Shown in pieces: positions 744 through 19,371 of a DNA stretch of 64,000 nucleotides; within the stretch, counting starts at the first letter, position 1, and each line of letters begins with the position of its first letter. Location: the NCBI GenBank assembly GCA_019359125.1, contig JAHHHY010000011.1:62001-126000 (forward strand). Reading direction: 5' to 3'. The stretch comes from Pleurocapsa minor GSE-CHR-MK 17-07R. Its GTDB lineage: Bacteria; Chloroflexota; Anaerolineae; Aggregatilineales; Phototrophicaceae. The notes below the pieces were generated by a model. The model saw nothing but the letters and a program-made list of their open reading frames with translations, had not been told where the DNA came from and did not search any database. The position numbers and the translations under genes are program-made.

Positions 744-2321
744 CTAGCCACCTGCCAGGCGCAGATCGCGGAAGGTGAACCAGCCGTCCTTGCGTGGGGT
801 GAACTCGAATTCGGCGGTGTTGAAGCCCATCACGCTGTCCACTTCAAACAGGGTGATCGTCTGTGCGTAATCGAGATAGTAGTCCCACCACTGGCTCCAC
901 AGCTCCAGGCGTGCTTCCGGATCGACGGTGCGCACGATTTCGGTGCCGATGGCGTCCCATTCCTCAACGCACACGTTGTAGTTCGCCTGCACCCAGTCGC
1001 ACACGTAGAACGTGGGCACCAGCGAGGGCGAGCAGCCCAGCGTGGTCATCATCATTTCGCGGTTGTTGCCGCTCGACACGACCTGCTCGTTGTAGGCGCT
1101 GGCATCCAGCACATTCAGCTCCACATTGAAGCCGACTTCTTCGAGCATGACTTCGGCAATCTGGGCGACTTCGGCATCGTTGCCGCTCTGGAATGTGGGC
1201 GCATCCATGTAAATGGTCGGGCCCTGGCCATTGGCCACGTCATAGCCGGCTTCGGTCAGCAGCTGGCGCGCCAGCTCGGGGTCGTACCAGTTGGCGACGA
1301 CTTCGGGGTCAGCCAGGCGGTCCGGGAAGCCTTCAGGATAGTACGAGCACACACGGCCCAGACGCGGCTGGGCAGAGCCCTGCACTTCGGCCAGGAGGAC
1401 GCGGTCCAGCGCATGGCTGATGGCGAGGCGCACGTTGTTGTCCAGCGTGGCCGGCTCATAACCAGGGTACGTTTCCGCAAATGAGCCCGTTTCGGTTTCA
1501 ACGCGCAGGTAGAACTGAACCATGCGGTTGCTGGTTTCTGTCAGCAGCGACAGGCCTTCGGTCGACGCGACACGTTCGCGGTCCGGCACAGGCACGGCGG
1601 AGATCATGTCGACCTGGCCAGCCAGCAGCGCGGCCACCTGGGCCGACTGTTCCGGAATGACCTGGTAGATCACACGGTCGACTTCCGGACGGCCACCCCA
1701 GTAGCCATCCCACGCTTCAAACACGTAACGGTCGCTTTCCGTGAATTCGGCCAGGCGATACGGGCCGGAGCCAATCGGGGCGCGTGCGAATTCTTCTTCA
1801 CCCACTTCGGCCATGTAGTCCGGGGGCAGAATCTGGCAGCCGTTGAAGCTGATGTCGTATTCGAAATAGGCGTGCGGCTCATCGGTCTTGATGTCCAGCG
1901 TCAGCTCGTCGATGACGATCACTTCGTCCACGAACAGCCACTGCGGGTGCACCAGGAAGTCTTCACGCGCCAGCACACGGTCGATATTCCACTTCACTGC
2001 TTCGGCATCCAGCACCTCGCCGTTGTGGAAGGTCTGGCCAGGGCGCAGGTTGAAGCGCCAGGTCAGCTCATCGATATTTTCCCATGATTCGGCAGCCTGG
2101 CCGACATAGCCATTGCCGTCAGCGGCGCGCCAGATCAGGCAGTCGTACATCAGGTTGGTCAGCCAGTGAGTGGATCCGAACCAGGTCACGGGCGCGTCCA
2201 TTGTGCGGATCGGCCCGGGATGTGCGAACACAAACTCGGTTACCTCGTCCTGCGCGACGGCTACGCTTGTGCCTGCCAGCAGCAGCATCGCGACAGCGGC
2301 CAATTTTTTAAAACTGTTCAT
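744..2321 (-). CDS. ABC transporter substrate-binding protein, family 5 (peptide/opine type)
   Basis: Secreted or lipid-side binding protein of a peptide/nickel/opine-type importer (SBP_bac_5), 525 residues, normal length for the family. The start chosen is the ATG at 2319-2321 because GGAGGGG lies six bases upstream; a TTG six codons earlier would bury that site. Residues 1-23 (MNSFKK then a hydrophobic run ending AVAQ) form a signal peptide without a lipobox cysteine. Family features visible include 'SWENIDELTWRFNLRPGQTF', 'ALLAGQVDMISAVP' and 'AISHALDR'. It is the first transporter gene of the long catabolic operon reading from 15,029 leftwards, so it probably captures that pathway's substrate. 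Family 5 proteins bind di/oligopeptides, opines, cyclic amino-acid derivatives and sugars, so the ligand cannot be named. Confidence 0.93.
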   Translation of the reverse strand: MNSFKKLAAVAMLLLAGTSVAVAQDEVTEFVFAHPGPIRTMDAPVTWFGSTHWLTNLMYDCLIWRAADGNGYVGQAAESWENIDELTWRFNLRPGQTFHNGEVLDAEAVKWNIDRVLAREDFLVHPQWLFVDEVIVIDELTLDIKTDEPHAYFEYDISFNGCQILPPDYMAEVGEEEFARAPIGSGPYRLAEFTESDRYVFEAWDGYWGGRPEVDRVIYQVIPEQSAQVAALLAGQVDMISAVPVPDRERVASTEGLSLLTETSNRMVQFYLRVETETGSFAETYPGYEPATLDNNVRLAISHALDRVLLAEVQGSAQPRLGRVCSYYPEGFPDRLADPEVVANWYDPELARQLLTEAGYDVANGQGPTIYMDAPTFQSGNDAEVAQIAEVMLEEVGFNVELNVLDASAYNEQVVSSGNNREMMMTTLGCSPSLVPTFYVCDWVQANYNVCVEEWDAIGTEIVRTVDPEARLELWSQWWDYYLDYAQTITLFEVDSVMGFNTAEFEFTPRKDGWFTFRDLRLAGG

Positions 2322-2379
2322 GTCATTCCCCTCCAACAACGAAGTTATTACGGTTCAGGGCGTTCGAGTCTGCTATCCA

Positions 2380-2422: not shown

Positions 2423-3811
2423 TCATGCTGTTACCGCATCCTGTCTCGTTAACCGGACAAGTGCGCCCACGTTTTCGAGCGTTTCCAGCCGCTGGATCTG
2501 TGCGACCAGGGCGTCCACGCGCTCGCGTGGGAGGAGGTTGCCAACCAGAGTGGTGAATTTCTTCTCGAACTCTGCGTCGGTAAGCATATTTTCAGGGTCA
2601 CCCTTGGCGTCGGCCACATGGCCGCGCAGCTCGGTGCCGTCTTTCAGGGTGATGCGCACAATTGCTCCGTGGCGATTCGGGTCCTGCTTCGCGCCTTCCT
2701 CGTCCAGGCCCACGGTAACCAGACTGCGCAGTCGCTGTGCTTCGGGCGTGTCATAGGTGTCGATATCCTCGCGGTACCAGCTGCCACGGGTCAGCACGAC
2801 GGAGGCTGTCACGGGCAGGCTGAAGCCCGCCTGTCCCACCGAGGTCGGGTGGAAGTTTACGCGGAAATCGGGTGTGATCGCCATATGATAGGTGCGGATG
2901 TCGATCGCTGACACGTCGTCAGGATGAGGCTGGTGCTGACGCATAATCTCCTGAACAGCATCAACTGTGGCATGCACGTGGCGGCAACCGGCATGCGGCT
3001 TGAAGCTGATTTCCTCCAGCGCCTTGTTTTCGCCCAGTCTGCTCAAATAAGACGGGTCATACCCCGGGCCAAACGCATGGAAGTAGCCATACGGCCCATC
3101 CAGCGCGCCGGGCGGCCCCTGAAAGCCGAAGGCAGCCATGCGTGCGGCCTGAATGCCGCTGCGCGCCGCCTGTCCGGCCAGCAGGTCTTTGGTATCGCAT
3201 TTGCCTGCGTCATACACATACTGCTCGGTGCCGCAGGCCATGTCCATCGCCAGTGCCAGCGCGTTGCCGATGCCGTCTGCATCCAGCCCCATGGCGACAG
3301 CGGCGGTGACGGCGGCGGCCATCGTGCCGGCCTGTCCCTTGTGGTCAAGACCGCGTTCGCGCTGCCAGTTCTTGACGGCGGGCTGGATGATATCCATGAC
3401 TTCATAGCCGGCCGCCAGCGCGGTGATGACCTGTTTACCGTTCAGCTTCAGGTGCTCGCCCAGCGCCAGCACCACTGGCACCAGCTCCGCTGCGACGTGC
3501 CCGTTGATGCGGTGCGAATCGTCCATGCCCAGGAATTTGCCCATGACGCCGGTCGCCCAGGCTGCACCTTCAACGGTGCTGCTGCGGCCATCAGCGGGGA
3601 TGGTGGCGTCGCTGCCGGGATACATGGTCGTGGCATAATCCGCAGCCAGCTTGCCCAGTCGCGTCTGATACCCGCCGAGGATCGTGCCCAGCGTATCCAG
3701 GATGACCTGGCGCGCGCGCGTAACCGACAGCTCGGAGAGCTGGTCGAACGACAAGTTTGCGGCGTATTCCGCAATTCTGGCGACAGCAGTAGGGCTATCT
3801 TTATCAGGCAT
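2423..3811 (-). CDS. MmgE/PrpD family protein
   Basis: Cytoplasmic lyase/epimerase-fold protein of 462 residues, the usual size. The family includes 2-methylcitrate dehydratase (PrpD), cis-aconitate decarboxylase and iminodisuccinate epimerase. Start at ATG 3809-3811, preceded by GAGGGAAAGCTG; an upstream in-frame alternative would overlap this site. Family hallmarks seen are the N-terminal helical domain with 'QVILDTLGTILGGY', the conserved 'GMDDSH' followed by 'NGHVAAELVPVVLALGE', and 'KPHAGCRHVHATVDA', the signature preceding the lid domain. No prp genes (methylcitrate synthase, PrpB) are nearby. A role in the methylcitrate cycle is therefore unlikely, and a dehydratase or epimerase step on an amino-acid-derived dicarboxylate is more plausible. 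It sits between the M24 gene and the transporter of the same operon. Confidence 0.9.
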   Translation of the reverse strand: MPDKDSPTAVARIAEYAANLSFDQLSELSVTRARQVILDTLGTILGGYQTRLGKLAADYATTMYPGSDATIPADGRSSTVEGAAWATGVMGKFLGMDDSHRINGHVAAELVPVVLALGEHLKLNGKQVITALAAGYEVMDIIQPAVKNWQRERGLDHKGQAGTMAAAVTAAVAMGLDADGIGNALALAMDMACGTEQYVYDAGKCDTKDLLAGQAARSGIQAARMAAFGFQGPPGALDGPYGYFHAFGPGYDPSYLSRLGENKALEEISFKPHAGCRHVHATVDAVQEIMRQHQPHPDDVSAIDIRTYHMAITPDFRVNFHPTSVGQAGFSLPVTASVVLTRGSWYREDIDTYDTPEAQRLRSLVTVGLDEEGAKQDPNRHGAIVRITLKDGTELRGHVADAKGDPENMLTDAEFEKKFTTLVGNLLPRERVDALVAQIQRLETLENVGALVRLTRQDAVTA

Positions 3812-3864
3812 CAGCTTTCCCTCACTCACTGTGGGGCGCACAGGGCGCCCCCTGAAACGATGTG

Positions 3865-5022
3865 TTATCCCTCCAGCGGGATGTAATAGCGGCTGGCATC
3901 GTGCGGCGAGAGGCGTACTGCCCCTTCAGGTGTGACCAGGAAGTTATCCGACACCAGGAAGCCGCGGTTGTTTTCCAGCACGGTGCCCGGGTGGAACGAG
4001 AGTACCATGTTCGGCTTCAGCACGAAGTCCGGGTTGCTGGCCGTGCTGGGGCCGTCGCTGCCATCCAGTCCGGTACTGTGGCAGTCGGGCGTATGCTTGC
4101 CCACCACCGGGAAGCCCAGACCGCGAATCACGCTGTCATTGGCCTCGGAAATCTGGCGGAACGTATTGCCCGATTTTGCTGCGGCAGACGAGGCATCGAC
4201 AGCGGCCAGATAGGCATCCAGCAGCCCGCGCACATCCGGCGGCAGCGGCTTGAACGAGAACACAGTCGTCAGCTCCAGCCAGTATCCCCACGGTGATTCG
4301 TACACGATCTCGAAATTGATGATATCGTCCGCGCCCATGCGATGATCTTTGGCCGTGGGCACGGTGTATGGGGTGATATCCAGCGACAGCTTGGTGCGGC
4401 CCCAGAATGCGCCGAACGACTTCACATAACCTTCGACGGCGGCGCACACGTCCCAGTAACGCGCGCCCACTTTGGCATGTTCACGGAAGACATTCAGCGA
4501 AGCATCCAGGATGGCGCCATTCTGCTGAAAGGCCTCGATCTCGAACGGGGTCTTGATCTGGCGAATTTCGTTGAACGCGCCGGTCACTTCCACCATCTCG
4601 TAGCCTTCAAGCTGCTTGGTGAAGCTCTTGTGCACGTCGATGCTCATCAGCTTGTTCATATTCACAAAGCCGATGCGCTTGCTGCCGGTCGCGTAGCCTT
4701 TGGCCAGCTCGGCTGTGCGCGTGGTCAGGTCGTCTGATGCGGATTCGACGCGTTCGGGCAGGGTGGTTGTCTCGTTGCGGCTCCACACTGCCTGATACGA
4801 ACTCCACACCTGCAGCCACGGATGCGGGTCATTCGCGCCCAGCACGGCATAGGCTGCGCCGCCCCACAGGTGTGCGTTGGTGATATAGCGGATGGCCCCG
4901 AGTGAGCCTGGTGCTGCCTGCCCGATGATGACCAGGGCATCCAGGTCCTTGCTTTTCATCATCGCCTGGATGCGTTCAATACGGCGGGCGGTGTCGCGTT
5001 TCAAACCTTCATGAGTGAGCAT
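3865..5022 (-). CDS. Creatinase-like M24 (pita-bread fold) protein with non-canonical metal site
   Basis: 385 residues from ATG 5020-5022: an N-terminal creatinase-type domain (RIERIQAMMKSKDLDALVIIG) and a C-terminal pita-bread domain. The family includes Xaa-Pro peptidases, creatinase and ectoine hydrolase (DoeA/EutD). Aligning by eye to dinuclear M24 enzymes, the two Asp ligands are Glu (INFEIV and WLELTT) and the His ligand is kept (CHSTGLDGSDGP). The first Glu ligand is His (SFHPG) and the last Glu is Ser (LVSDNFLVT). Like creatinase, it probably works without two metals or on a non-peptide C-N bond. It is adjacent to AstE-type deacylases, the same pairing as DoeA/DoeB in ectoine breakdown, but no ectoine-specific gene is seen. 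Overlap with neighbours is absent (44-base gap). Confidence 0.85.
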   Translation of the reverse strand: MLTHEGLKRDTARRIERIQAMMKSKDLDALVIIGQAAPGSLGAIRYITNAHLWGGAAYAVLGANDPHPWLQVWSSYQAVWSRNETTTLPERVESASDDLTTRTAELAKGYATGSKRIGFVNMNKLMSIDVHKSFTKQLEGYEMVEVTGAFNEIRQIKTPFEIEAFQQNGAILDASLNVFREHAKVGARYWDVCAAVEGYVKSFGAFWGRTKLSLDITPYTVPTAKDHRMGADDIINFEIVYESPWGYWLELTTVFSFKPLPPDVRGLLDAYLAAVDASSAAAKSGNTFRQISEANDSVIRGLGFPVVGKHTPDCHSTGLDGSDGPSTASNPDFVLKPNMVLSFHPGTVLENNRGFLVSDNFLVTPEGAVRLSPHDASRYYIPLEG

Positions 5023-5066
5023 GTTTTTTTGCCTCAGTGTCTCGCAGAGTGTAATTGTTTCCGCCC

Positions 5067-6050
5067 TTAGCGGACGGTGATTTCTGTCTTGATGTCGCCC
5101 AGCATGGCCAGCAGCTCGCCCTCTAATGTCACGGGCCATGATGCGCCCGCATGCACCATAACGCCGTCACGCGGGGCAGCGATTTCTTCCAGCACTTCGC
5201 CTGTGAACGGATGGCGCACATAACCAACGCTTTCGCCTGCGCGAATCGCGGTGCCGCGTTTTTCAGCGTGCATGAAGGTGAAGCCGCGCTCGCCGGTCGG
5301 ATACAGGAAGGTGTGGGCATCCAGAATCGTCTGCGTGGCTTCCTCGTATTGAAGCGCCCCGTCCAGCATACCCAGATGACGCAGCGCATTCAGCACGGCA
5401 TTCTCCATGCGGCCCAGGTCTTCATCACGGAAGTCGCGCAGGCCAGGCCCGCCGCCAATGTAGGCGGTCACGACGGTCTTGCCATCTTTGGCTGCTTCGT
5501 AGGCCATCGACCGGTCTGCTGGCTGGCCAATCACGACCTGCTGCAGGCCCAGCGCGCGCGCCAGCATGGTCGAGCGTTCTTCGTCGCCGGTCTTGTACAC
5601 GCCGGCATAGCGGTAGTAGCTCCACTGCGAGCCGGTGCGGATTTCAAGCAGGGCGTCGGCTTTCGCCAGCACCGTCTGGTAATACTGATAGATCATCTGC
5701 TCGCTGACGCTGCCGTGTTCGCTGCCGCGCCCCAGGCTGTTGAGGTGCTTGTTGTCCCACGCGCTGTTGATCTGCTCAAATTCGAACCCGGAGGTGTTCA
5801 TCAGCGGCACGACGATCAGCGTGCCGCGCAGGGCGGCGGGATCGAGCGCCTTCACCAGCTCTGGCAAAATCAGCGCGGGCTCCAGCTCCAGGCCGCTGGC
5901 CCCGGCCTGCACCACCAGCGTCGGCCCGTCAGCCGCGCCGCGGACGATGTGCAGCGGGATATGTACAGGGAAACGCCCATGCGTCTCGCCAGTCTTGAAA
6001 AAACCATAAACTTTTTCGCCCGGATGGGCTTCGATGGTGCCGATGTTCAT
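5067..6050 (-). CDS. AstE/AspA-family protein, predicted catalytically inactive
   Basis: 327 residues; aligns end to end with the neighbouring active-looking paralogue (6069-7097) without gaps up to residue 138. The zinc-dependent deacylase signature is destroyed. His52 of the paralogue's IHGGE is Ser52 here (ASGLE), with only Glu55 kept. The third zinc ligand His138 (DFHAG) is Arg138 (EIRTG). The catalytic Glu of TLEFGGG is Tyr197 (TAYIGGG). The substrate-binding Arg of the paralogue's DISRLFPG is Ser (HLNSLGRG). The reading frame is intact and the fold-determining glycines remain, so this is a maintained pseudoenzyme rather than a decayed gene. A role as regulatory or structural partner of its two paralogues is inferred. 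Start ATG 6048-6050, with GGGGAG eight bases upstream; a GTG lies one codon earlier. Confidence 0.85.
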   Translation of the reverse strand: MNIGTIEAHPGEKVYGFFKTGETHGRFPVHIPLHIVRGAADGPTLVVQAGASGLELEPALILPELVKALDPAALRGTLIVVPLMNTSGFEFEQINSAWDNKHLNSLGRGSEHGSVSEQMIYQYYQTVLAKADALLEIRTGSQWSYYRYAGVYKTGDEERSTMLARALGLQQVVIGQPADRSMAYEAAKDGKTVVTAYIGGGPGLRDFRDEDLGRMENAVLNALRHLGMLDGALQYEEATQTILDAHTFLYPTGERGFTFMHAEKRGTAIRAGESVGYVRHPFTGEVLEEIAAPRDGVMVHAGASWPVTLEGELLAMLGDIKTEITVR

Positions 6051-6068
6051 CACGTCATCTCCCCTGGG

Positions 6069-7097
6069 CTAATACACGTACAGGTCAGTGGTGCGGCGGT
6101 CTTCCACGCGGTCGATCGTGCCCAGGATGCCGACCGAGGTCGCGCCGATGGTGGGCCATTCCTGCCCGCTGGGGATGACGATGCCGTCTTTGGGCGTCGG
6201 CATCTCGGCCAGCAGATCGCCGGTATACGGGTCGATCAGCTTGGCATACACATCGCCTGCCTTCAGTTCATCACGGAAACGCTTCAGGCGCACGAACATG
6301 CCATCCACGTCCGGCTTCCAGATGACGACGCCCGCGTTGTAAATCGTGCACAGCGGCCCGTCGCTCTCGAAATCGCCGTCGATCATGCGCATCGATTTCA
6401 TCACGTTCCAGATGCCGCGTTCAGCATCGCGCACGTTGTCCTGGCCGTTCTTGAACCAGCCCGTGCCGCCGCCAAATTCCAGCGTAATCTGCGTCACACC
6501 GGCCTTTTCGATGGCTTCCTTGGTCGTATTCGGGCCAAAGGTGCCGGGCGGGAAGAAGGCCGCCTGGTCCAGCCCGAACGCGACCACCAACTTGCGCCGC
6601 ATCAGCTCGATTGGCGTCGGGTTGTTGGGGTCTGTCTCGGCGCCGAACAGCACATACCGTTCGTAGGCGGTGCGCGCGCCGGCATGGAAGTCGACCATCA
6701 CGTCGGACTGTTTGATGACTTCCTCGAAGTACACGTGGGCGATCTGGTCGCTCACGCTGCCGTTCGCCTTGCCGGGGAACAGACGGCTGATGTCTTTGCC
6801 GTCGATGCGCGAGCCGCGTTCGCCCAGCTCAAAGCCGGCACGGTTGACCACCGGCACGGCGATCACATTGCCCTTGAACGGAGTCGTTTTGAGCTTCTGG
6901 ATGAAATTCAGGATGGCGACAGACCCGATGATTTCTCCGCCGTGGATCGCGCCCTGTACCAGCAGGGTGGGTCCGGGCTCTGCCCCGGCGAACAGATGCA
7001 CGGGGATATCGGGCGTCAGCCCGGAACGTGACGCGGTCGTTTTCAGATAGCCAAAGACGTGCTCTCCCGCCTTGGCTTCCAGGTGTCCTACCTTCAT
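6069..7097 (-). CDS. Succinylglutamate desuccinylase/aspartoacylase family deacylase
   Basis: 342-residue cytoplasmic zinc deacylase of the M14-like AstE/AspA family, which hydrolyses N-acyl groups from amino acids (N-acetylaspartate, N-succinylglutamate, N-acetyl-diaminobutyrate). Zinc ligands His52 and Glu55 (IHGGE) and His138 (DFHAG) and catalytic Glu207 (TLEFGG) are all visible, as is the DGKDISRLFPG segment corresponding to the DMNRxFPG substrate loop. Start ATG 7095-7097 follows AAGGAGG, and the ATGA overlaps the stop of the S9 peptidase gene, implying translational coupling. It is one of three family members in this operon and the only one adjacent to the inactive copy. The exact acyl-amino acid is unknown. 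Confidence 0.9.
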   Translation of the reverse strand: MKVGHLEAKAGEHVFGYLKTTASRSGLTPDIPVHLFAGAEPGPTLLVQGAIHGGEIIGSVAILNFIQKLKTTPFKGNVIAVPVVNRAGFELGERGSRIDGKDISRLFPGKANGSVSDQIAHVYFEEVIKQSDVMVDFHAGARTAYERYVLFGAETDPNNPTPIELMRRKLVVAFGLDQAAFFPPGTFGPNTTKEAIEKAGVTQITLEFGGGTGWFKNGQDNVRDAERGIWNVMKSMRMIDGDFESDGPLCTIYNAGVVIWKPDVDGMFVRLKRFRDELKAGDVYAKLIDPYTGDLLAEMPTPKDGIVIPSGQEWPTIGATSVGILGTIDRVEDRRTTDLYVY

Positions 7098-9112
7098 GCC
7101 CTGCCTCCTTCTGCTGTATGTGTGCCCAGGTATTTTTGGAACCAGCCCAGGATGCGCCGCTGATGCTCGATGCGGTTGCCCGGTCGTCCGCCGCGCGTCA
7201 GGCCGTGGTTTTCGCCCTCAAAGACCACCATTTCGACTGTTCTGCCCAGCCAGCGCAGGATGGCGAACAACTGCTCAGCCTGTTCCAGCGCACAGCGATA
7301 GTCTTCATCCGCATGCAGGATCAGCAGCGGCGTATGGATGTGTTCGGCGTAGGCGATCGGCGACTGGCGCCAGCTCGCCTCCAGATTGCGCCAGACATTC
7401 GTGCCCGTCTCGCCCTCGGTGCCTTCCGGCCCAATGTCCGAGGTGCCGAAGAAGCTGATCTGGTTGGTGATCGAGCGCTGGGTGACAGCCGCCGAGAAAC
7501 GGTCAGTGTGGCCGACAATCCAGTTGGTCATGAAGCCGCCGCAGCTGCCGCCGGTCACGCCCAGGCGCGCCGCATCGACATACGGCCGCGAGACCAGCTC
7601 GTCTACGCCAAGCATGATTTCCTCGTAGTCTTTGCCGCCCTGGTCACCCTCGCTGGCATGCGTCCACGCCTGGCCATAGCCCGCCGTGGTGCCGCGCTGG
7701 TTGAAGTAGGCCACCACGAAGCCGGCGTTGGCGTACACCTGGAATTCGTGGTTGAAGTCCCACGAGAACATCGAGCAGTGCACGTACACGATCGTCGGGT
7801 ACTTTTTGCCTTCCTCGAAATTCAGCGGCTTGATCAGCCACGCATGCACTTTGGCACCGTCCACCCCGTCGTACCAGTAGGTTTCCGGCGGGGACAGGCG
7901 CACATCGCGCAGCCATGGGTTGAAATCGCTCAGGCGGGTGACCTTGCCGCTTTTCCACAGGTACAGCTCGCCGGGGTTGCTGGGGTCGGCCTGCCCGAAG
8001 GCGGCGATATCCCCGGCTGCCGGGCTGTATTCAAAGGTCACGCTGTTGCCGCCCACCAGCTTTTCATAGCGGCCGGCGGTGTCGATGCGGTACAGGTTGG
8101 TCGCCCCCTGTTCGGTGAGCAGGAAGTAGATGTAGGCGTCGCCGGGTGCCCAGCGGACGGTTACGTTGGCCAGGCCTTTGCGCTGGTCGGCCACGGCGTA
8201 ATTGCCCACTTCTTCGTCGATATCGTCGCCCAGCTTTTTGGCGGTGCGCGCGGCCACATCGGCCAGATACGGCTGCCAGAAATTGCGCCGATTCACCGGC
8301 GGCGGCGAGTTGTGCCCGGCGAAGGCGATATAGCGGTCATTGGCGCCCCATACCGGGCTGACGGCCGTACCCTGCCAGCCTTCCAGCAGCAGGTAGGGCG
8401 TCCCTTCAGGGAAATCGCACACGAAAATCTGGCCATAGCCCAGCGGCGTGTTCTGTTCGCGGGCGGTGCCCACAAACGCGAGGCGTTCGCCGTGCTGGCT
8501 CCATTTCGGGTAGCCATAGTCCATTTCGCTGTGGGTGACCTGGGTCAGCTCGCCGGTGTTCAGCGTCAGCACCCAGATCTGCTGGAAGCGGTCATGCACC
8601 CAGCCGCTGCCATCCTGCTTGTAGCGCAGGCGGCGCACGACCCTGATGGTGGGCGCGGGCATGCCGGGCGCTGCGCTGCGGTCTTCGGGATGGCGCATCG
8701 GCGTCCAGCGGACACCGACCAGCTTTGTCCCATCTGCCGACCAGTCCAGCCCGCCCATTGATTCACCTTCGATGGCATAGGTGCTGGTCTGGCCGCTGGC
8801 GGCATCCCACACGCGGATGCTGGACGCGCCGCCTTCGGCATAGGCATAGGCGAGGCGGGCGCTGTCGCGGCTCCAGGCCAGCGCCGACGCGCTGCTCAGG
8901 CCGGTGGTCAGGCGTTCCACGCTGTCGGTGGCCAGGTCACGCACATACACATGCGTGCTGTAGTTGTTGGTCTGCGCCAGCGGCTGTTTGACGGTATAGG
9001 CCAGCTTCGTCCCATTGGGCGACAGCGCAATATCATCCAGCCAGCGAAAGCGGAACAGGTCTTCGGAAATCAGCCCACGTCTGGCGTTTACGGGAAAGTC
9101 TTCCTGATGCAT
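7094..9112 (-). CDS. S9 family serine peptidase (acylaminoacyl/prolyl oligopeptidase type)
   Basis: 672 residues: an N-terminal beta-propeller with WD/TolB-like repeats (about 1-400) that gates the active site, and a C-terminal alpha/beta hydrolase domain. The nucleophile elbow is GGSCGGF, the acid lies in LILHADEDYRC and the histidine in GENHGLTRGG, giving a complete Ser-Asp-His triad. No signal peptide is present, so it acts on imported short peptides or acyl-peptides in the cytoplasm. The start ATG 9110-9112 follows GGAGG at seven bases and lies three bases after the upstream deacylase gene, so the two are probably coupled. Sitting between two deacylases, it may release an acyl-amino acid or a blocked N-terminal residue that they then deacylate (inference). 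Confidence 0.93.
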   Translation of the reverse strand: MHQEDFPVNARRGLISEDLFRFRWLDDIALSPNGTKLAYTVKQPLAQTNNYSTHVYVRDLATDSVERLTTGLSSASALAWSRDSARLAYAYAEGGASSIRVWDAASGQTSTYAIEGESMGGLDWSADGTKLVGVRWTPMRHPEDRSAAPGMPAPTIRVVRRLRYKQDGSGWVHDRFQQIWVLTLNTGELTQVTHSEMDYGYPKWSQHGERLAFVGTAREQNTPLGYGQIFVCDFPEGTPYLLLEGWQGTAVSPVWGANDRYIAFAGHNSPPPVNRRNFWQPYLADVAARTAKKLGDDIDEEVGNYAVADQRKGLANVTVRWAPGDAYIYFLLTEQGATNLYRIDTAGRYEKLVGGNSVTFEYSPAAGDIAAFGQADPSNPGELYLWKSGKVTRLSDFNPWLRDVRLSPPETYWYDGVDGAKVHAWLIKPLNFEEGKKYPTIVYVHCSMFSWDFNHEFQVYANAGFVVAYFNQRGTTAGYGQAWTHASEGDQGGKDYEEIMLGVDELVSRPYVDAARLGVTGGSCGGFMTNWIVGHTDRFSAAVTQRSITNQISFFGTSDIGPEGTEGETGTNVWRNLEASWRQSPIAYAEHIHTPLLILHADEDYRCALEQAEQLFAILRWLGRTVEMVVFEGENHGLTRGGRPGNRIEHQRRILGWFQKYLGTHTAEGGRA

Positions 9113-9115
9113 AGG

Positions 9116-10126
9116 TCAGCCTCCCCGGCCCGGAATCAGATTGTCGACGGTTTCTTCGACCACGCCGAAGAAGCACACCCACTGGCCTTCCAGCACAGAC
9201 GGGCGCGAGCGCAGGCCGAAAATCACGCCGTCACGCGGGGCGCGCACTTCGGCCACCACATCGCCATACAGGTCGTAGATTTTGCCCAGCACGGTGTCTT
9301 TGGGCAGATTCGTCTCAAACGGAATATCCTTGGTGCCCACAAACATGCCGGTGGCTGGGGCCAGCAGTGCGATCTGGTAGCCCATGCGCCAGGCCGGGGC
9401 ATATTCCGCCTTGCCCTCGATCATGCCGTAGTGGCGCATCACGTTCAGGTAGCCTTCGGCCAGGTCATCGGCAATATTGTGGAAGTCGGTAGTCAGCGTG
9501 CGGCAGTTGCCGCCCAGCTCCACCGTGACGCCGCCTTTGCCCAGCCCGGCAATCTGCGAGCTCGGGTTGCCGCCGCCGGTGCCGCTGCGGAACACCAGCG
9601 TCCAGTTCGGGCCCATCGCCGCCGCCAGCTCCAGGCTAACCGGGGTGTCGGCCGAGAAAATCATGTGCGCCAGGTACGAATGCTCGCCGCCGGAATGGAT
9701 GTTGATTTGCAGGTCGCAGTTCTCTTTCATCGCCTGCCAGTGCGCCCAGGCCACGCGCTCGGTGGGATAACCTTCCGGCTTGCCCGGATACAGGCGGTTC
9801 ATGTCATACGAGAAGGTGTCCAGCGGGTCGCCGCGCTGGCCTGCCGTGAACGACTCGACATTCATGACCGGCACGGCCACGACGGTGCCCTTGAGCGTCT
9901 TGGGGTCCAGGTGCGAGAGCGCCTTGAAAATCGAGAACGGGCCTTCCGGCTCGTCGCCGTGGGTGGCGCCGTTCAGCCACAGGATCGGGCCATCTTCGAT
10001 GCCGCGATACACGATGATGGGAATCTGGCGCTCACGGGAATACATGTCCCCGCCGAGGGGGATGCCGCCGCGCTTCATTTCGCCCGGCATGACCGAGATA
10101 TTTCCAATATTCAATGGCGTTGCCAT
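9116..10126 (-). CDS. Succinylglutamate desuccinylase/aspartoacylase family deacylase
   Basis: 336 residues, same family as 6069-7097 but clearly divergent from it. The zinc site is intact: His and Glu in ATHGDEPEG and His in INIHSGGEHSY. The catalytic Glu lies in TVELGG, and the substrate loop reads SYDMNRLYPGKPEG, closer to the canonical NRxFPG than the other paralogue. The C-terminal beta-barrel domain typical of AstE/AspA follows (VRAPRDGVIFGLRSRP). Start ATG 10124-10126 with CAGGAGAG upstream. Having two active deacylases with different loops suggests two different acyl substrates or sequential deacylations in the pathway. Confidence 0.9.
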   Translation of the reverse strand: MATPLNIGNISVMPGEMKRGGIPLGGDMYSRERQIPIIVYRGIEDGPILWLNGATHGDEPEGPFSIFKALSHLDPKTLKGTVVAVPVMNVESFTAGQRGDPLDTFSYDMNRLYPGKPEGYPTERVAWAHWQAMKENCDLQINIHSGGEHSYLAHMIFSADTPVSLELAAAMGPNWTLVFRSGTGGGNPSSQIAGLGKGGVTVELGGNCRTLTTDFHNIADDLAEGYLNVMRHYGMIEGKAEYAPAWRMGYQIALLAPATGMFVGTKDIPFETNLPKDTVLGKIYDLYGDVVAEVRAPRDGVIFGLRSRPSVLEGQWVCFFGVVEETVDNLIPGRGG

Positions 10127-10157: not shown

Positions 10158-11225
10158 TTAAAGTGGGCAGTTCACGTTAACTTCAGCGGACAGCGCCCGC
10201 AGCTTCTCGACAGTTTCGCGCGACAGCGGCACGCCATTTGCCTCGCGCTCGCCCATGCGCTGGAATTCGACTTCGCCGGGCAGGATCACCGGGCGCTTCG
10301 GGTCGATGGCGGGTGCGCCCTTGACCTCGGCCACCAGCTGTTCCAGGCGCGTGTCATAGTCTGCCTGGTCCATGAAGGCGGTCGGGTTGATCGCCATCAT
10401 CACGTGGCCGACATCATGGTTGGTGTCGTCCTGGAAGACGCTCATGCCGAACAGCGAGCCGGTCATCACGCCCGCCAGCACGTCGGTAATCAGGCTCAGG
10501 CCGTAGCCCTTGTATTCGCCGATGGGCAGCAGCGGGCCCAGCATGGCGGCGGCCGGGTCGGTGGTCGTCTGGCCATCCGGCGTCAGCGCCCAGCTTTCGG
10601 GCATCGGCCGGCCTTCGTTCATCAGCCAGCGCATCATGCCCTTGCCGGACATCGTCAGTGCCATATCCAGCACAATGGCGTGCGTGTCCTTGCGCGGAAT
10701 GGCGATGCCCCAAGGGTTGGTGCCCAGCACCACCTGCGCCGACCCCCACGGGGCCATTTCAGCCTTGGCGTTGGTGAACGACCAGCCGATCAGGCCTTTC
10801 TTGGCGGCATGCAGCGCGTGGTATCCGGCGATGCCGAAATGGTTGCTGTGGCGCACGCCCACCATCGCGATGCCGGTGACTTTCGCCTTCTCGACCGCTT
10901 TGGCCATGGCGCGATGTCCCGACACGTAGCCGAAGCCTTTGGCTGCGTCAAGCAGGGCGTAGCTGGGGCCTTCTTTCACCCACGTCATATTCGCGTTGGG
11001 GACGATGCCGCCGTTGGTGACCTGCATGTGGAAGCGGAAGAATTTCTCCAGCCCCTGGCCCTGGCCGGGGTGCCACCACAGCGAGGCGGTCATCAGGCCA
11101 TCCACCAGGATGGCGGTTTCTTCTTCGCTGGCACCCAGCGCCAGCAGGAAATCGCTGGCGAATTTTTGCAGCGTCTCCAGCGGATACAGGGTAATCAGGT
11201 CTTCTTTATCGATGTCGTATGCCAT
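10158..11225 (-). CDS. Ldh family NAD(P)-dependent oxidoreductase
   Basis: 355 residues, malate/L-lactate/ureidoglycolate dehydrogenase family (Ldh_2 fold, unrelated to classical lactate dehydrogenase). The nucleotide-binding hallmark 'VGVRHSNHFGIAGYH' with the catalytic His, the 'GTNPWGIAIP' segment and 'GPLLPIGEYKGYGLSLITDVLAG' are present. The N-terminal substrate motif, usually SHGxxRxPxY, reads HPGQGQGLEKFFRF, so the usual His and Arg appear as Gln and Lys. This suggests a substrate other than a simple 2-hydroxyacid, as in family members reducing cyclic imines (delta-1-piperideine- or pyrroline-2-carboxylate). It is followed within 31 bases by the deacylase gene. Confidence 0.9.
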   Translation of the reverse strand: MAYDIDKEDLITLYPLETLQKFASDFLLALGASEEETAILVDGLMTASLWWHPGQGQGLEKFFRFHMQVTNGGIVPNANMTWVKEGPSYALLDAAKGFGYVSGHRAMAKAVEKAKVTGIAMVGVRHSNHFGIAGYHALHAAKKGLIGWSFTNAKAEMAPWGSAQVVLGTNPWGIAIPRKDTHAIVLDMALTMSGKGMMRWLMNEGRPMPESWALTPDGQTTTDPAAAMLGPLLPIGEYKGYGLSLITDVLAGVMTGSLFGMSVFQDDTNHDVGHVMMAINPTAFMDQADYDTRLEQLVAEVKGAPAIDPKRPVILPGEVEFQRMGEREANGVPLSRETVEKLRALSAEVNVNCPL

Positions 11226-11286: not shown

Positions 11287-12012
11287 TCACATCAGCGGTG
11301 CAGACAGCGGATTGAGCGACGCCTCATTGACCACGAAATCGCGCGGGCTGGTGACCAGATGCCCGACGAAACGCGCCACTTCCGCCGGATCCATGCTTTC
11401 CGAGCGCGGCTTCTCGCCAATCGGTGCGCCGCGCCAGCCGGTGTCCATGCTGCCCGGATACAGGACCGTGGCGCGCACGTTGTGCGCTTTGCCGGCTGTC
11501 GCAATCGCGTGATTCAGCCCGGTCAGGCCAAATTTGGCTGCGCCGTAGGCCGGGCTGCCGCCGCCGCGCTGTCCGGCGGTGCCGGAAATCGTGACCACGT
11601 AGCCGCCATCGCTGGCGGTCAGCGCGGTCCACAGCGCGCGGGTGAGATAGAAGACGCCGTTCAGGTTGGTGCCAATCACCGACTGCCAGTCGTTGAAATC
11701 GGTCTCGGCGAAGGTGCGCGGGGCAGGAATCCCGGCGTTGTTCACCAGGATGTCCACGCGCGACATTCGCGCCACGATGAACGCGGCCGTCTCCTGCACC
11801 GTGTCGGGATTGGAGATATCGCATGTGACCGGGATGACGGTGGTGCCTTCGCGCTCGATGTCGGCGGCGGCGGCGGCCAGCGTGTCGTGTGTGCGGCCGA
11901 TCAGCACCAGGTTGGCGCCCAGTGACGCCAGATGCTGCGCGACGGCTTTCCCCAGACCGCGGCTTGCGCCGGTGACGACGGCGACTTTATGTGCCAGTGG
12001 CTTGTTGTCCAT
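11287..12012 (-). CDS. SDR family oxidoreductase
   Basis: 241-residue short-chain dehydrogenase/reductase. Rossmann motif TGASRGLG, NNAG, the catalytic Ser in TISGTAG and YGAAK (Tyr-x-x-x-Lys, with one Ala variation) are in order. Arg after the TGASRG turn (LIGRTHD) favours NADP(H) over NAD(H). It is of the 3-oxoacyl-ACP reductase-like subtype, whose specificity cannot be deduced. In the operon it lies 27 bases after the aminotransferase gene, so it may reduce or oxidise the oxo product of transamination. Confidence 0.9.
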   Translation of the reverse strand: MDNKPLAHKVAVVTGASRGLGKAVAQHLASLGANLVLIGRTHDTLAAAAADIEREGTTVIPVTCDISNPDTVQETAAFIVARMSRVDILVNNAGIPAPRTFAETDFNDWQSVIGTNLNGVFYLTRALWTALTASDGGYVVTISGTAGQRGGGSPAYGAAKFGLTGLNHAIATAGKAHNVRATVLYPGSMDTGWRGAPIGEKPRSESMDPAEVARFVGHLVTSPRDFVVNEASLNPLSAPLM

Positions 12013-12039: not shown

Positions 12040-13194
12040 CTAGCGGACCGCCATAATGTTCTTCATGGCCACGCGCATGCGTTCCAGCCCTTCGCGCAGC
12101 TTGTCTTCCGGCTGCAGGAAGGTCATGCGCACATACTGGCCGCGGTCCTTGTCGAAGGCTGCACCCGGATAGACCAGCACGTGCTGGTCGCTCAGGATCT
12201 TCTGCGCCAGGTCGGCGCTGTCCAGGCCGGTGAAGCTGATGTCGATGTAGACAAACTGGCCGCCCTGGGGCACGCCGTACACCATACCCATATCGTCCAG
12301 CGCATCCAGCACCAGCTTGCGGCGCTTCTTGTATTCGTCGGCCATGTACTGCACGGCATCCTGCGGGCCGGTCAGCGCGGCCAGCCCCGCATACTGCGAG
12401 ATGATCGAGGTGCCGCCGGTGGTGGCCGCCTTGAGCGCCTTCACCCGCGCCATCAGGTCGGCCGGGCCGACGACCCAGCCGAGACGCCAGCCGGTCATCG
12501 AGAACGACTTGGAAAGCGCGTTCAGCGTGAGCGTGCGCTCTTTGCCGCCCGGCAGCGATGCCGTGCTGACGTGCTTGAAATCGTCATAGATGAACAGGTC
12601 ATAGATGTCGTCAGCGATGATGACCAGGTCATGTTCCTGGGCGATGCTGATGAATTCCTGCATGTCTTCGCGGCTGATGACGGTCGCGGTGGGATTGTTG
12701 GGCGAGACCAGCAGCAGCGCGCGCGTCTTTGGCGTGATGGCGGCGCGCACGGCAGCGGGGTCGGTGCGGAAGTTGGTTTCCGCGGAGCTGGGCACGCTCA
12801 CCTTGACGCCGCGCGAAAACTTCAGCGCGTCATGGTAGGTGTTGTAGTTCGGCTCTGGCACGATGATTTCGTCGCCGGGGGCCATGACCGCCAGCACCAT
12901 CAGCATCAGGGCTTCCTGGCCGCCGTTGGTGACCACGACTTCGGTCTCCGGGTCGACGTCGATGTTGTTGATGCGTTTGACGCGCTCGGCAATTGCCTTG
13001 CGCAGCGGCAGGATGCCCTCGGCGGGCACATGCTCCGCGTGATGCTCGGCCATCGCCTGCTTTGCGGCGGCCACGATGTGCGGCGGTGTGTCAAAGTCCG
13101 GGTCGCCACGGCCCATGATGATGGTGTCGCTGTAGGTCTTGGCCTCAGCGATCAGCTCGTACAGAAGATTGGTACCCTGCTTTTTAGTGGTCAT
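12040..13194 (-). CDS. Class I/II pyridoxal-phosphate aminotransferase
   Basis: 384-residue fold-type I aminotransferase. PLP-binding features are complete: the Schiff-base lysine Lys229 in ALSKSFSMTGWRLGW, the Asn-Pro of SPNNPTA, Asp-x-x-Tyr in IIADDIYDL, and the C-terminal carboxylate-binding Arg in YVRMTF. It belongs to the aspartate/aromatic-type subgroup I. Its start (ATG 13192-13194) lies three bases after the stop of an aminotransferase-fold protein lacking the lysine, so the two are probably made in equal amounts. Predicted to remove the amino group of the pathway's amino acid in the cytoplasm. Confidence 0.92.
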   Translation of the reverse strand: MTTKKQGTNLLYELIAEAKTYSDTIIMGRGDPDFDTPPHIVAAAKQAMAEHHAEHVPAEGILPLRKAIAERVKRINNIDVDPETEVVVTNGGQEALMLMVLAVMAPGDEIIVPEPNYNTYHDALKFSRGVKVSVPSSAETNFRTDPAAVRAAITPKTRALLLVSPNNPTATVISREDMQEFISIAQEHDLVIIADDIYDLFIYDDFKHVSTASLPGGKERTLTLNALSKSFSMTGWRLGWVVGPADLMARVKALKAATTGGTSIISQYAGLAALTGPQDAVQYMADEYKKRRKLVLDALDDMGMVYGVPQGGQFVYIDISFTGLDSADLAQKILSDQHVLVYPGAAFDKDRGQYVRMTFLQPEDKLREGLERMRVAMKNIMAVR

Positions 13195-13197
13195 GAG

Positions 13198-14292
13198 TTA
13201 ACTGCCTTTTCCGGTAAGCTGCCGGACGACGGCTTCGGCTGCGCTGCTGAACGAAACGGTGATGCGCACCACACCCGGTGCGCCAAAGTCGGCGCCATCG
13301 GCCAGGTCGGCCCCGCTGGCTGCCCCCTGTGCGCGGACGGCCAGCACGGTGCCCGTGCTGCCGGGAAGTGCGGTGGCGCTGTTGCTGTCGGCCAGCAGGG
13401 CGCGCAGGGCTGCCTGCGTCTGCTGCAAACGTGCCGCCTGGGCGGGCTGCTGTTCACCGAACAATTTGCTGGCTTCCAGCGCGGCATACTGCGCCGACGT
13501 GCTGGTGCAGATGGCCATGATTTGTTTCTGCGACTGCATCGGCGGAATCAGCGCGACCGGCGCGGCGATATAGCCGATAAACCAGCTCGCCAGCCCCATG
13601 CCGGGGAAGGCCTCGCCAATGGTGACAATCTGTGCCCCCGGCGCGGACTGGCCCGCCAGCGATACGGCCTGTTCTGCCCACGGCGACAGGCCCTGGTCCC
13701 AGATGATCGTGGCCTGATGCTGGCTGGCCAGCTGGGCAATCGCGGTGGTGTCGGCGGCGCTGTAGACCGCGCCGGTCAGGCGTGAGGGAGACTCCAGATA
13801 CACCAGGCGGACGCCGCTTTCCAGCGCGCGCTGGATTTCCGCGACGGCGGGCAGGTAACCGGCCGCTTCGTCGCAGGCCAGCGTCTCGATCGGCATCGGG
13901 CGCACCCCCAGCGCGCGGCGGGCACCAGGGTGCACGACGGCGGGCAGGGCGATGCGGTCGAAGTTTTCGCCGATCATCTGAATCGTGAGGAAGCGTGATT
14001 CCTGGATGCCAGCCGTGACGATCACGTTGGCGGCCTGGGTGTCGGCGCCGGTGGCGCCGCGCAGGTACTCGGCGATGGCGGCGCGCAGCGGGCCGATGCC
14101 CGGCACGTCGACGTAGTGGGTATGGCCGGCTTCCATCGCCTCAGACGCGCCCGCGATGATGCGCTCGTCCAGCGGCATGAAGATTTCATCCGCGCCGATG
14201 TCGCCTTCGGCACGCATGGTCAGCGGTGGTGCGGCTGCATTGAGCAGCGTGTTGGCGGCGTGCTGCGCCAGAATTGCGTCTTTCGTGGTCAT
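13198..14292 (-). CDS. Aminotransferase-fold protein lacking the PLP lysine
   Basis: 364 residues with the overall layout of a class I/II aminotransferase, including the N-terminal 'HTHYVDVPGIGPLRAAIAEYL' segment, 'IVTAGIQESRFL' and a C-terminal Arg (VVRITVSF). The PLP lysine position reads TIGEAFPGMG, with Glu227 where the partner has Lys229. SPNNPTA has become SPSRLTG, and the Asp-x-x-Tyr has lost its Tyr (WDQGL). It therefore cannot form the internal aldimine. The frame is long and undamaged, its start overlaps the GntR stop (ATGA at 14289-14292), and it is followed three bases later by the active aminotransferase. I infer a non-catalytic subunit or a PLP-independent function. Confidence 0.82.
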   Translation of the reverse strand: MTTKDAILAQHAANTLLNAAAPPLTMRAEGDIGADEIFMPLDERIIAGASEAMEAGHTHYVDVPGIGPLRAAIAEYLRGATGADTQAANVIVTAGIQESRFLTIQMIGENFDRIALPAVVHPGARRALGVRPMPIETLACDEAAGYLPAVAEIQRALESGVRLVYLESPSRLTGAVYSAADTTAIAQLASQHQATIIWDQGLSPWAEQAVSLAGQSAPGAQIVTIGEAFPGMGLASWFIGYIAAPVALIPPMQSQKQIMAICTSTSAQYAALEASKLFGEQQPAQAARLQQTQAALRALLADSNSATALPGSTGTVLAVRAQGAASGADLADGADFGAPGVVRITVSFSSAAEAVVRQLTGKGS

Positions 14293-15029
14293 GACTTGTT
14301 CTCCTGTGAGGGTGCCCCGTTGCCATCTATCGCCAGATCGTCAATCGCCCAGCCTTCCACAAGCAGGTCTGCGGCGGAGCCAATATGGTGATGGATGAGC
14401 TTGACGGCTTCGTCGACATTTCCGCGCTCGATGGTGTCGACGATGATGAAATGGTTTTCTGCGATGACGAACAGGTTGCCTTTCCGGCTGTTGCGCAGCG
14501 ACATCACCTGGCGCACGCGCAGGCTGACGGTGCCCCACAGCTGGATCAGCAGGTCATGCCGGCTGGCATAGACGAGCGTGTCGTGGAAATCGCGGTCGAT
14601 ACGATTCACGCCGCTCAGGTCGCCGGCTTTGGCTGCTTCCAGCATGATGGCGCACACGGCGCGCAGGTCAGCCAGGGCGGTCGGTGGGGAACCCGCCTCG
14701 ATGATGCGCTGAATGGCGAAGGCCTCCATCAGGCTGCGGATGCTGTACAGCTCCTCGATGTCTTTACGCGACAGCTTCTTCACGGTAGTGCCGTGGTAAG
14801 GCACGATTTCCACCAGCCCCTGCGCCGCCAGCGTATTGATGGCCTCGCGGATGGGGGCGCGGCTGACGCCGAGCTGGGCCGCCAGGTCCGCCTCGATCAG
14901 CGTCGTGCCGGGTTTCAGCTCGCCGTTGATGATGGCCGCGTTCAGCATAGCCAGAACATGTTCGCGCAGGGATTTATTCTGAATTTGCCCTAAAGAAGAT
15001 TTATTTTCCCCGTTGCTTGACAACTTCAT
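14289..15029 (-). CDS. GntR family transcriptional regulator, FadR/FCD subfamily
   Basis: 246 residues. A winged helix-turn-helix covers about residues 20-85 ('ADLAAQLGVSRAPIREAINTLAAQGLVEI' is the recognition region), followed by an FCD effector domain with metal-type His/Asp residues (RDFHDTLV, ENHFIIVDTI, HHHIGSAAD). It heads the minus-strand operon and its stop overlaps the next start. Upstream lies an exact ATTGTCGACAAT palindrome and ATCGACC repeats between two divergent promoters, a typical place for its operator. FCD regulators usually sense a small carboxylate that is the pathway substrate, so it is probably a repressor of this operon and of itself. Confidence 0.93.
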   Translation of the reverse strand: MKLSSNGENKSSLGQIQNKSLREHVLAMLNAAIINGELKPGTTLIEADLAAQLGVSRAPIREAINTLAAQGLVEIVPYHGTTVKKLSRKDIEELYSIRSLMEAFAIQRIIEAGSPPTALADLRAVCAIMLEAAKAGDLSGVNRIDRDFHDTLVYASRHDLLIQLWGTVSLRVRQVMSLRNSRKGNLFVIAENHFIIVDTIERGNVDEAVKLIHHHIGSAADLLVEGWAIDDLAIDGNGAPSQENKS

Positions 15030-15783: not shown

Positions 15784-18700
15784 CTACTCCAGCGGATTCT
15801 CGCGCACCAGCACCAGTGTGCCCGGCTCGAACAGCGTGGCGCAGGTGAAACCGGGGAAGTCTGGCACGGTATAGCTGCCGATAATCTCGGCCTGGCGCGG
15901 CGCAGCGCTGGCCGCCAGCCAGATCAGCGTCCCCTCTCCGCGCAGGCAGAAGACCGCTCCCCCCTCAAATCTTGTCAGTCCCGCCGGGCTGAAAATATCC
16001 ACCGCCTGCATGATGCCCAGCGTTTCCAGCCCGGGCAGGCCAATATTCTCGATGCCGTACATGGGGCTGCCATAGTAGCTGGGTGAAACGCCGTCCTGCA
16101 TCAGCACGCGGCAGTTGATCTGATTGCCTTGCGCGTCGCTCATGCTGGCGCGCACCACGCCACCCTCGCTGAAATTATGCTCGCTGCACAGCGGCACGTC
16201 CGGCGGCGCGGGCAGAGTCGCCCCTGGCACGGGTGCGGGCGGCGGTGGTGGCGGCGATGGCGGCGTTGACCCTGGATCAGGCGTCACTTCGGGCGTGACC
16301 TCAGGCGTGACTTCGGGTGTGATTTCCGGGGTGACCTCCGGCGTGATTTCGGGTGTGACTTCTGGTGTAATTTCCGGCGTGACTTCAGGCGTGACTTCGG
16401 GTGTAATTTCCGGCGTGACTTCAGGCGTGACTTCGGGTGTCACTTCCGGGGTGATTTCCGGTGTCACTTCCGGCGTGACTTCAGGTGTGACTTCAGGTGT
16501 AATTTCCGGCGTGACTTCAGGCGTGACCTCAGGCGTCACTTCGGGCGTGATTTCGGGCGTCACTTCCGGTGTCACCTCAGGCGTGACTTCGGGCGTGACT
16601 TCGGGCGTCACTTCGGGCGTGACTTCCGGTTCAGGATCGTTGTCCGTGACGGTCACGTTGATGGTCGAGAGCGACAGGCCGTTATAGTTCGCGTCGCTGC
16701 TGCTCACGCTGAACGCGATGCTGCCGGGATGCGTGCCTTCAAACAGCGCATCGTCAACCGCTGTCACGGTGATCGTCTGCGGCTCGTCCCAGTCGGACGG
16801 CGTGAACAGCACCAGGTCTTTGCTGGTCGTCACCTGGGCATTTGTGAGCGTGATGGCGACATTGGCGCTGGGCGCGGTCTGCATGGTGAAGGTGAGCGAC
16901 CCGGTCGCGCCGCCCTCGGTCACCGCGATGCTGTCCGGGCTGAGCGTGATGCCGGGCGGAATCGGGTCGTTGTCGCTGATATTCACGGTCACGGGCGCGG
17001 GTGTGAGTCCGTCATAGGCCGGGTCGGCGCTCGTCACCGTGAACGCTACCGTGTCGGTGTGGTCGCCTTCGTAGATGCTGTCATCCACGGCCAGCACGAC
17101 CACATATTTGATGATGTCCCAGTTTTCAGGGGTGAAAGTGAACGACGGGAAGCTGAGCTCAAGCTGATCGCCGGCGGTGAAGCTGACGGTCACGTTGGCC
17201 GCTGGTTCGCTGGTCAGGCGGAGGCTGATGCCGTCGGTGAAGCCGGTGTTGCCCTCCAGCGCCGTGGTCACGCCATCTGTCTGCGTCACTGCGACGCTGG
17301 CAATATCGTTGTCCTCGATCGGCACGGTGATGGACGGGACAACCAGGCCATCATAGGCCGGGTCGGTGCTGGTGACGACGAAGGTCACGGTGCCGCTGTG
17401 GTCGCCCTCGGCGATATCGTCGTCAATCGCTGTGATGACCAGATACTGAATCATGTCCCAGTTTGCTGGGGTGAAGGTCAGCTCGCCCAGCCCGGTATTG
17501 AGCTGGTCACCGCCGAAGGCCTCGATCGTTACATTGGCCAGCGGCTCGCTGGTGAGCAGGAAGCTGAAGCCATCGGTGGGGAAAACGCTGGTTTCTGGCG
17601 CGGATGTGCTGCCATCGGTCTCGATGACCGTGACGCCTGCGATGTCGTCATCGGTGATGCTGACGCTGACGGGCAAGACAGCCAGTTCGTCATAGTCAAA
17701 GTCGCCGCTGCTCACGCTAAATGCGACGCTGCCGCTGTGCGCCCCTTCGGCAATATCATCGTCCACGGCGCTGATGGTCACCTCCTGCGGGGTGTCCCAG
17801 TCCAGCGGCGTGAATTCGATCATCGAGACGCCCGTGCTCACCTGCGTATTGCTGAAGGTGATGAAGACTTTGCCGGTGGGCGCGCTGTCCAGCACCAGCG
17901 TGATGGTGTCGGTGTCTCCGCCTTCGGTCGCGCTGGTCGCCCCGTCGCTTTCTGTGACGGTGATGCCCGGCGGCGGGGTCGGCGTGGATTCATAGGCGCC
18001 CATATCGACCGCATCGCCCTGAATGCGCGCCCCGCCTGCCAGATCGAGCGTGACGCCGGACGGGATTAGCGCATCGCTGCCCGCGTCAATGGCCGGGCTC
18101 ATCTCCCTCAGCGTGAAATCAGTATCGAGCCTGGGATCGCCGGTCAGATTGCTGGTGTTGGTGCCGCTCACGCAGGTCAGGCCGGATTCAATCAGGCTGT
18201 ATTCAGCATTGATGGTGCCGTTCTGCCGGTGACAGTCGCCGCCGGACGTGCTGTTGGCGACGATGGTGTTGCGCAGCGTCAGCGTGGTCGAGTAGTAGTT
18301 GCTCACGCCGCCGCCATTGCCGGTCGCGCTGTTGCCGCTGAGGGTGCTGTTAATGACGGTGGTCGTGCCCCCGTTGAAAATTGCCCCGCCGTTCACGGCA
18401 GAGTTTCCGTAAAAGAGGCTGTTGACCACATTCACCGACGACTCGGTGTAGATCGCGCCACCGTCGCCTGAGGCCGAATTGCCGCTGAAGACGGAATTGC
18501 TGATGCTGGCCAGCCCGGCGCTGCTGTCGCCCACCAGCGCGCCACCATTGCCGCCGGTCGAGTTTGTGTCAAACGTGCTGCCCGTGATGCTGAGCGAGGG
18601 GCCCGCGTGATAAATCGCGCCGCCGCTGTTGCTGCTGAACGTGCTGTCCGTGATTGTCAAAGCGCCGCTGCTGTAGATGCCAGCGCCACCGCCGCCGGCC

Positions 18701-19146: not shown

Positions 19147-19371
19147 AGACTTCCCTGTAATTAAGATGATTATGTCAGAAATAGTATGGGTAAAACCAAA
19201 TTTCAGACAATAAAAATTTACCGATTTCATACAAATTTCAACTTTGGCAATGTCACACGTGACCGCATGCAGCAATTTTCCCTCAGACGCGCCGTCACTG
19301 ACAGCGCGTTTTAAGGGCCGTAGGAATACTTTGTGAGGATGCGGGCACAAGTTCTTTGTGGTATATGTGGG

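Follow-up and report, generated by a model that had tools for sequence, protein, structure and literature searches.

The ectoine degradation protein EutD belongs to the M24 family. Its counterpart EutE, also called DoeB (N-acetyl-L-2,4-diaminobutanoate deacetylase; PDB 6twl and 6twm; TIGR02994), is a member of the AspA family, and the account of the system describes a bimodule in which both proteins are needed, with no stable complex seen in vitro (PMC8739950).

Catalytically dead paralogues that work with a live partner are a known kind of protein. As described in the literature cited here, a dead alpha subunit supports the live zinc beta subunit of the mitochondrial processing peptidase (MPP; M16B), for which two-gene MPP-like operons exist in bacteria (PMC11266112); the trypanosome prozyme, a dead paralogue, has been measured to activate AdoMetDC within a heteromer (PMC5201418); a dead deoxyhypusine synthase paralogue activates its live partner, again in a heteromer (PMC3663545); and serine palmitoyltransferase joins LCB1 and LCB2 in a heterodimer of PLP-fold proteins, one of which is without the PLP lysine (PMC3794620). 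For the AstE/AspA family, a full-text search of open-licence literature, which excludes most subscription papers, found no report of a dead partner, and the term "aspartoacylase" does not occur in a review of inactive metallopeptidases (PMC11266112). Here, we describe a candidate for such a partner in a bacterial operon.

Results

The window, by which we mean the whole stretch of 64,000 nucleotides that was analysed, holds a run of minus-strand genes that looks like an operon for nutrient breakdown. From its head, the run reads as follows:

14289..15029, minus strand: GntR/FCD-type regulator, first gene of the run
13198..14292, minus strand: AT2, aminotransferase paralogue without the PLP lysine
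12040..13194, minus strand: AT1, class I/II aminotransferase with PLP lysine Lys229
11287..12012, minus strand: short-chain dehydrogenase
10158..11225, minus strand: Ldh_2 (malate/L-lactate dehydrogenase family)
9116..10126, minus strand: A, third AstE/AspA paralogue, active-type (all five residues), found in only some related operons
7094..9112, minus strand: S9 prolyl-oligopeptidase-family hydrolase, overlapping the start of B by 4 nt
6069..7097, minus strand: B, active-type AstE/AspA protein of 342 aa with His52, Glu55, Arg105, His138 and Glu207, 18 nt upstream of C
5067..6050, minus strand: C, putatively zinc-dead AstE/AspA paralogue of 327 aa with Ser52, Glu55, Ser105, Arg138 and Tyr197
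3865..5139, minus strand: M24 (pita-bread) family protein, its listed open frame overlapping C
2423..3841, minus strand: MmgE/PrpD family protein
744..2339, minus strand: family-5 extracellular solute-binding protein, with permease genes and a DegT-family gene downstream, mostly outside the window

Judged by spacing, with an overlap of 4 nt between S9 and B and a gap of 18 nt from B to C, co-transcription of the three genes is very probable. The overlap of the M24 frame with C, in turn, means that the true M24 start is probably further in than listed. Taken together, the family-5 uptake system, the acylases and the aminotransferases suggest that the substrate of the operon is probably an amino acid derivative, either N-acylated or cyclic. 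Elsewhere in the window, positions 15784-19350 of the minus strand form an open frame of 1188 aa, the C-terminal part of which contains a long tract of EVTPEVTPE-type repeats.

The frame of C is open and uninterrupted, with an ATG at 6050, from which the 327 aa are counted, and an in-frame GTG one codon upstream at 6053. Its product matches the Pfam profile AstE_AspA_cat (PF24827) over positions 1-192 of 192 with 53.8 bits, above the curated gathering score of 25, and is by this domain a member of the family. In an alignment with the product of B, to which it is 28% identical (92 of 330 columns), C carries Ser52 in place of His, Ser105 in place of Arg, Arg138 in place of His and Tyr197 in place of the catalytic glutamate (Glu207 in B), and Glu55 is unchanged. 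The His, Glu and His columns, which we take to be the zinc ligands, are conserved throughout the active-type rows of the alignment; the set expected of a functional zinc amidohydrolase, these three ligands and the catalytic Glu, is incomplete in C. At 17 columns conserved in B and other active-type relatives, C is changed at the two zinc histidines and the catalytic Glu and retains 12 of the remaining 14 (Gly, Asn and Glu55), a pattern of active-site loss that appears to exceed chance.

The predicted structure of C (mean pLDDT 81.4, pTM 0.85) has the AstE/AspA family fold. Its best match among solved structures is DoeB (6twm_F; Z 27.8, rmsd 3.1, 304 residues aligned), with carboxypeptidase folds as distant matches, and its confidence is low at 52-56 and 202-204, both of which fall at old active-site motifs, and at 86-97. 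The model of B is poor (pLDDT 53.5) and hence unfit for a comparison of the two pockets. A preliminary description of this DNA had named each of the four substitutions and the retained Glu55, together with an intact frame and a conserved scaffold; the alignment against B, the open frame, the PF24827 match and the predicted DoeB-like fold bear all of this out.

How does this locus compare with the described systems? DoeB/EutE is the best solved match of C in sequence as well as in fold and is also close to B, whose own best solved match is 3cdx. C differs from DoeB in being without the two zinc histidines and the catalytic Glu, and neither protein passes as DoeB under the TIGR02994 equivalog (C 70.7 and B 91.5 bits, against a cut-off of 402.7). 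By its residues, B would be a DoeB-type zinc acylase. Like eutE (PMC8739950), B belongs to an operon that includes an uptake system, often together with an M24 gene, and the window operon, as in the case of EutD and EutE, pairs an M24 protein with a DoeB-like one. MPP resembles B/C in consisting of a homologous live zinc subunit and dead subunit, encoded as a gene pair in bacteria, and alpha-MPP, according to the review, has Arg at the position of the beta-MPP zinc His, as C does (PMC11266112). The M14 pseudocarboxypeptidases AEBP1, CPXM2 and CPD domain III have Tyr in place of the catalytic Glu270, as the window copy has Tyr197, but they are eukaryotic and have lost their zinc ligands only partly, and the part of the review devoted to them describes no adjacent active partner gene (PMC11266112). 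The prozyme and deoxyhypusine synthase are other enzymes in which activation has been measured, whereas activation of B by C would be a prediction. MPP is of a different family, with a fold unlike that of AstE/AspA, and its heterodimer is proven, whereas for B and C we infer a heteromer.

Orthologues of C were sought in 61 genomes (its own and 60 relatives) and in a species-level genome collection; those found are 54-69% identical to the window copy. One record was present twice, as L034 and L098, and L034 was dropped from the trees, dN/dS, covariation, linkage and the aminotransferase and M24 rows, but is still contained in the residue table (54 C rows, one record twice) and in the comparison of operon gene content. 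The copy in L095, which is broken by a run of N, was left out of the residue table, the C tree and dN/dS and included in the linkage count. This leaves 53 distinct intact copies of C. The column of the first zinc His is occupied by Ser in 51/53, by Asn and Gly in one each and by His in none; that of the second by Arg in 47/53 and by His in 6/53. Glu55 is retained in all 53. In the catalytic Glu column, Phe is found in 24 of the 53 and otherwise Tyr, His, Trp, Cys or Arg, with Glu in 0/54 rows. The Arg105 column is variable (Arg in 20/54 rows), and its loss in the window copy is not a family trait. B, by comparison, keeps His, Glu, His and Glu in 50/50 rows and the Arg in 46/50, and the other active-type rows keep all five catalytic columns (30/30). 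Judged by these columns, the ancestral zinc chemistry has been lost throughout the orthologous group and not in this genome alone.

By profile search, 42 of the 98 genomes of its own GTDB family contain C, and the order adds none to these (42/154 genomes, E 1e-70). At the level of the class, 17 of 396 genomes matched the C profile at E 1e-30. Of these, 12 belong to the family and have C; G134, G160, G191, G279 and G397 matched more weakly and have all five catalytic columns intact in their nine genes, leaving no C-type copy outside the family among the 396. In the phylum, the own genome was the sole match among 400 at E 1e-40, in an even draw with few family members in the sample.

C forms one clade with support of 1.0. 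Its closest neighbours in the joint tree (0.85) are five active-type paralogues that come from a related region of G397, which belongs to another family of the same class; support for B is weak (0.42), which makes the placement of the exact sister of C tentative, and active-type genes stand on either side. Rooting the C tree on the G397 genes places L039 and then L035-L038 as the earliest branches, all of which retain the second His; later branches have Arg there, with the exception of L101. The common ancestor of the group had therefore already lost the first His and the catalytic Glu, and loss of the second His followed later, as one would expect if the protein no longer depended on zinc chemistry. 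The G397 region itself (L090, 4048-18161) contains five AstE/AspA paralogues, of which four form two tandem pairs; none of the five has lost a catalytic residue, and the region may be similar to what preceded the loss in C.

Counting only pairs with dS of 0.05-1.0, pairwise dN/dS has a median of 0.20 in C (range 0.04-0.53; 431 of 1,378 pairs) and of 0.12 in B (526 of 1,176 pairs), and, of 160 locus pairs with values for both genes, 151 have the higher ratio in C. For the window copy itself, the nearest orthologue is too distant to give a reliable ratio (dS 2.0). In C, 103 columns are at least 96% conserved, of which 53 differ from the commonest residue of B, including six arginines (108, 205, 208, 255, 265 and 279). 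None of the 53 copies is frame-broken, the only split copy (L095) being the one interrupted by the N run. Purifying selection on C is evident from these comparisons, with C less constrained than B.

For 50 of 54 copies of C, the gene immediately upstream, on the same strand, is B; the remaining four copies start close to the end of a contig, at a distance of 139-261 nt. The gaps between the two genes range from -4 to 304 nt and are below 100 nt in 32 of the 50. The profile lists of B and C name the same 42 of 98 family genomes with 49 copies each, a number explained by seven genomes that carry the order B-C-B'-C' (G094, G095, G105, G106, G112, G113 and G120); in G093 and G111, the two genes are split between separate contigs and both stand at a contig end. 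The B' and the C' copies each form one clade (support 1.0) with the same internal split, and the unit that was duplicated and retained is therefore the B-C pair itself. Four of the B' genes (L093 8655, L094 10497, L121 8538 and L124 8295) have Gln in place of Arg105, their zinc and catalytic residues staying as they are. Around the constant B-C pair, A, M24 and MmgE vary among operons, with A missing from many. The S9 gene precedes B in related operons wherever the contig extends far enough and is there as constant as B; it is thus homology, and not linkage by itself, that points to B as the partner of C.

Rate covariation was assessed by the mirror-tree approach in three gene sets of 26, 23 and 21 loci, genes covered to 85% or less having been dropped. 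The raw correlation of the B and C distance matrices was 0.74-0.84, among the lower values of the operon, and the partial correlation of their protein distance matrices was 0.04, 0.19 and 0.08, not above other operon pairs. We count this absence of B-C-specific rate covariation, a null result, against close physical coevolution; on a heteromer as such it is neutral.

A second pair in the operon is of similar kind. AT2 is paralogous to AT1 (28% identity over 254 columns), and, with rows below 100 bits and rows of 150 residues or fewer dropped, the PLP lysine of AT1 is present in 34 of 35 rows (a gap in the other), the same column being Pro, Ser or His in 30/30 rows of AT2. At the Asn column, which presumably holds PLP, AT2 has Arg in 29 of 30 rows and a gap in the other, and close by it has a column with Glu in 29/30; in the alignment of AT2 with PDB, its Pro faces a lysine that we take to be the PLP-binding one. 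An AT2-like copy of G397 (row L091) is also without the lysine. By these residues, AT1/AT2 is a second live/dead pair of the operon and its more unusual part. LCB1/LCB2 is likewise a live/dead PLP-fold pair, but belongs to a human enzyme with a different reaction, and an AT1-AT2 complex is only putative. The M24 protein, after rows below 150 bits and rows of 150 residues or fewer were dropped, has Glu, Glu, His, His and Asp instead of Asp, Asp, His, Glu and Glu in the columns assumed to be its metal ligands, fixed in 38/38 rows, and its site is altered but not plainly dead.

Discussion

In this study, we find C, which is carried by a group of Anaerolineae-type bacteria, to combine what marks a pseudoenzyme partner: loss of catalytic residues across orthologues, purifying selection and co-occurrence with an active paralogue. 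We consider it probable, though well short of certain, that C is a fixed pseudoenzyme acting as a non-catalytic partner subunit of the adjacent active B. On this explanation, a DoeB-like AstE/AspA ancestor of C would have lost its zinc chemistry in the common ancestor of the C group. B and C would assemble into a heteromer; its B subunit would bind the zinc and split an N-acyl or amide bond in an imported nutrient, presumably of amino-acid type. As to the direction of the effect, C may stabilise or activate B, or shape the access of substrate to B, as alpha-MPP does for beta-MPP or the prozyme for AdoMetDC.

These results largely bear out, and also refine, what the preliminary description had expected. 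Its view that C has been kept by selection and has not decayed agrees with a median dN/dS of about 0.2 and 53 open copies, and decay among relatives was not seen. Its question whether the substitutions are conserved among homologues has a divided answer, as absence of the first His and the catalytic Glu is universal in C, but the second His persists in some copies and Arg105 in more. The heteromeric role that it suggested finds circumstantial support in the shared genomes, equal copy numbers, constant order and joint duplication, and is not helped by the rate covariation.

C could alternatively have neofunctionalised into a stand-alone ligand-binding protein or a zinc-independent enzyme, by way of its C-specific conserved residues. 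Such residues exist: beyond the 53 C-specific columns with their six arginines, the candidates Glu57, Pro58, Arg108, Arg205, Asp206, Arg208, Arg279 and His280 include several near the old active-site motifs in sequence, and the old Glu position is filled mostly by aromatic residues or His. By itself, however, a new function leaves unexplained that C was not found without B in the family genomes and that their copy number is equal after duplication, and we regard this alternative as the foremost of the rivals but unlikely.

Less likely again is that C is a scaffold for S9 or M24 and not for B, within a complex resembling the hydrolase-deacetylase bimodule proposed for DoeA/DoeB. C is often flanked immediately by B on one side and M24 on the other, S9 precedes B where the contig reaches, and EutD and EutE are both required for efficient ectoine degradation (PMC8739950). 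Against this, C stays in L035-L038, L095, L120, L123 and L131, where tblastn with the window M24 at E 1e-15 did not detect M24.

Metal binding by C through other residues is unlikely, and that C thereby remains a hydrolase we hold to be very improbable. Glu55 is in every intact copy and the second His in six, and Csd4, a fold relative with entries among the fold matches of C, sets a precedent for replacement of a zinc ligand, which in Csd4 is Gln. Yet every intact copy of C has lost the first His and the catalytic Glu, the residues that take the place of the Glu (F, Y, H, W, C or R) provide no constant ligand, and His146, conserved otherwise, is Tyr in the window copy. Finally, that C is a relic of tandem duplication turning into a pseudogene is hardly credible and was rejected: it does evolve faster than B, but its 53 copies are open, dN/dS stays at or below 0.53 in 431 pairs, orthologues read through at 54% identity and the split in L095 is an N run.

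Returning to C as a dead partner of B, one may speculate further that the operon encodes a catabolic assembly of two obligate live/dead pairs, B/C and AT1/AT2, whose dead paralogues would be structural or allosteric, and that, together with the changed but fixed M24 protein, pseudoenzyme subunits would be a design rule here; we consider this wider reading doubtful.

In conclusion, a catabolic operon of bacteria is usually interpreted as a list of enzymes. In C, a deacylase-family domain is unable to use the zinc mechanism of its family, yet is preserved in step with a live twin. B/C thus offers a small, probably soluble and cleanly paired system for testing how a dead paralogue becomes indispensable, with the G397 region, whose five AstE/AspA copies are all still active-type, as a comparison.
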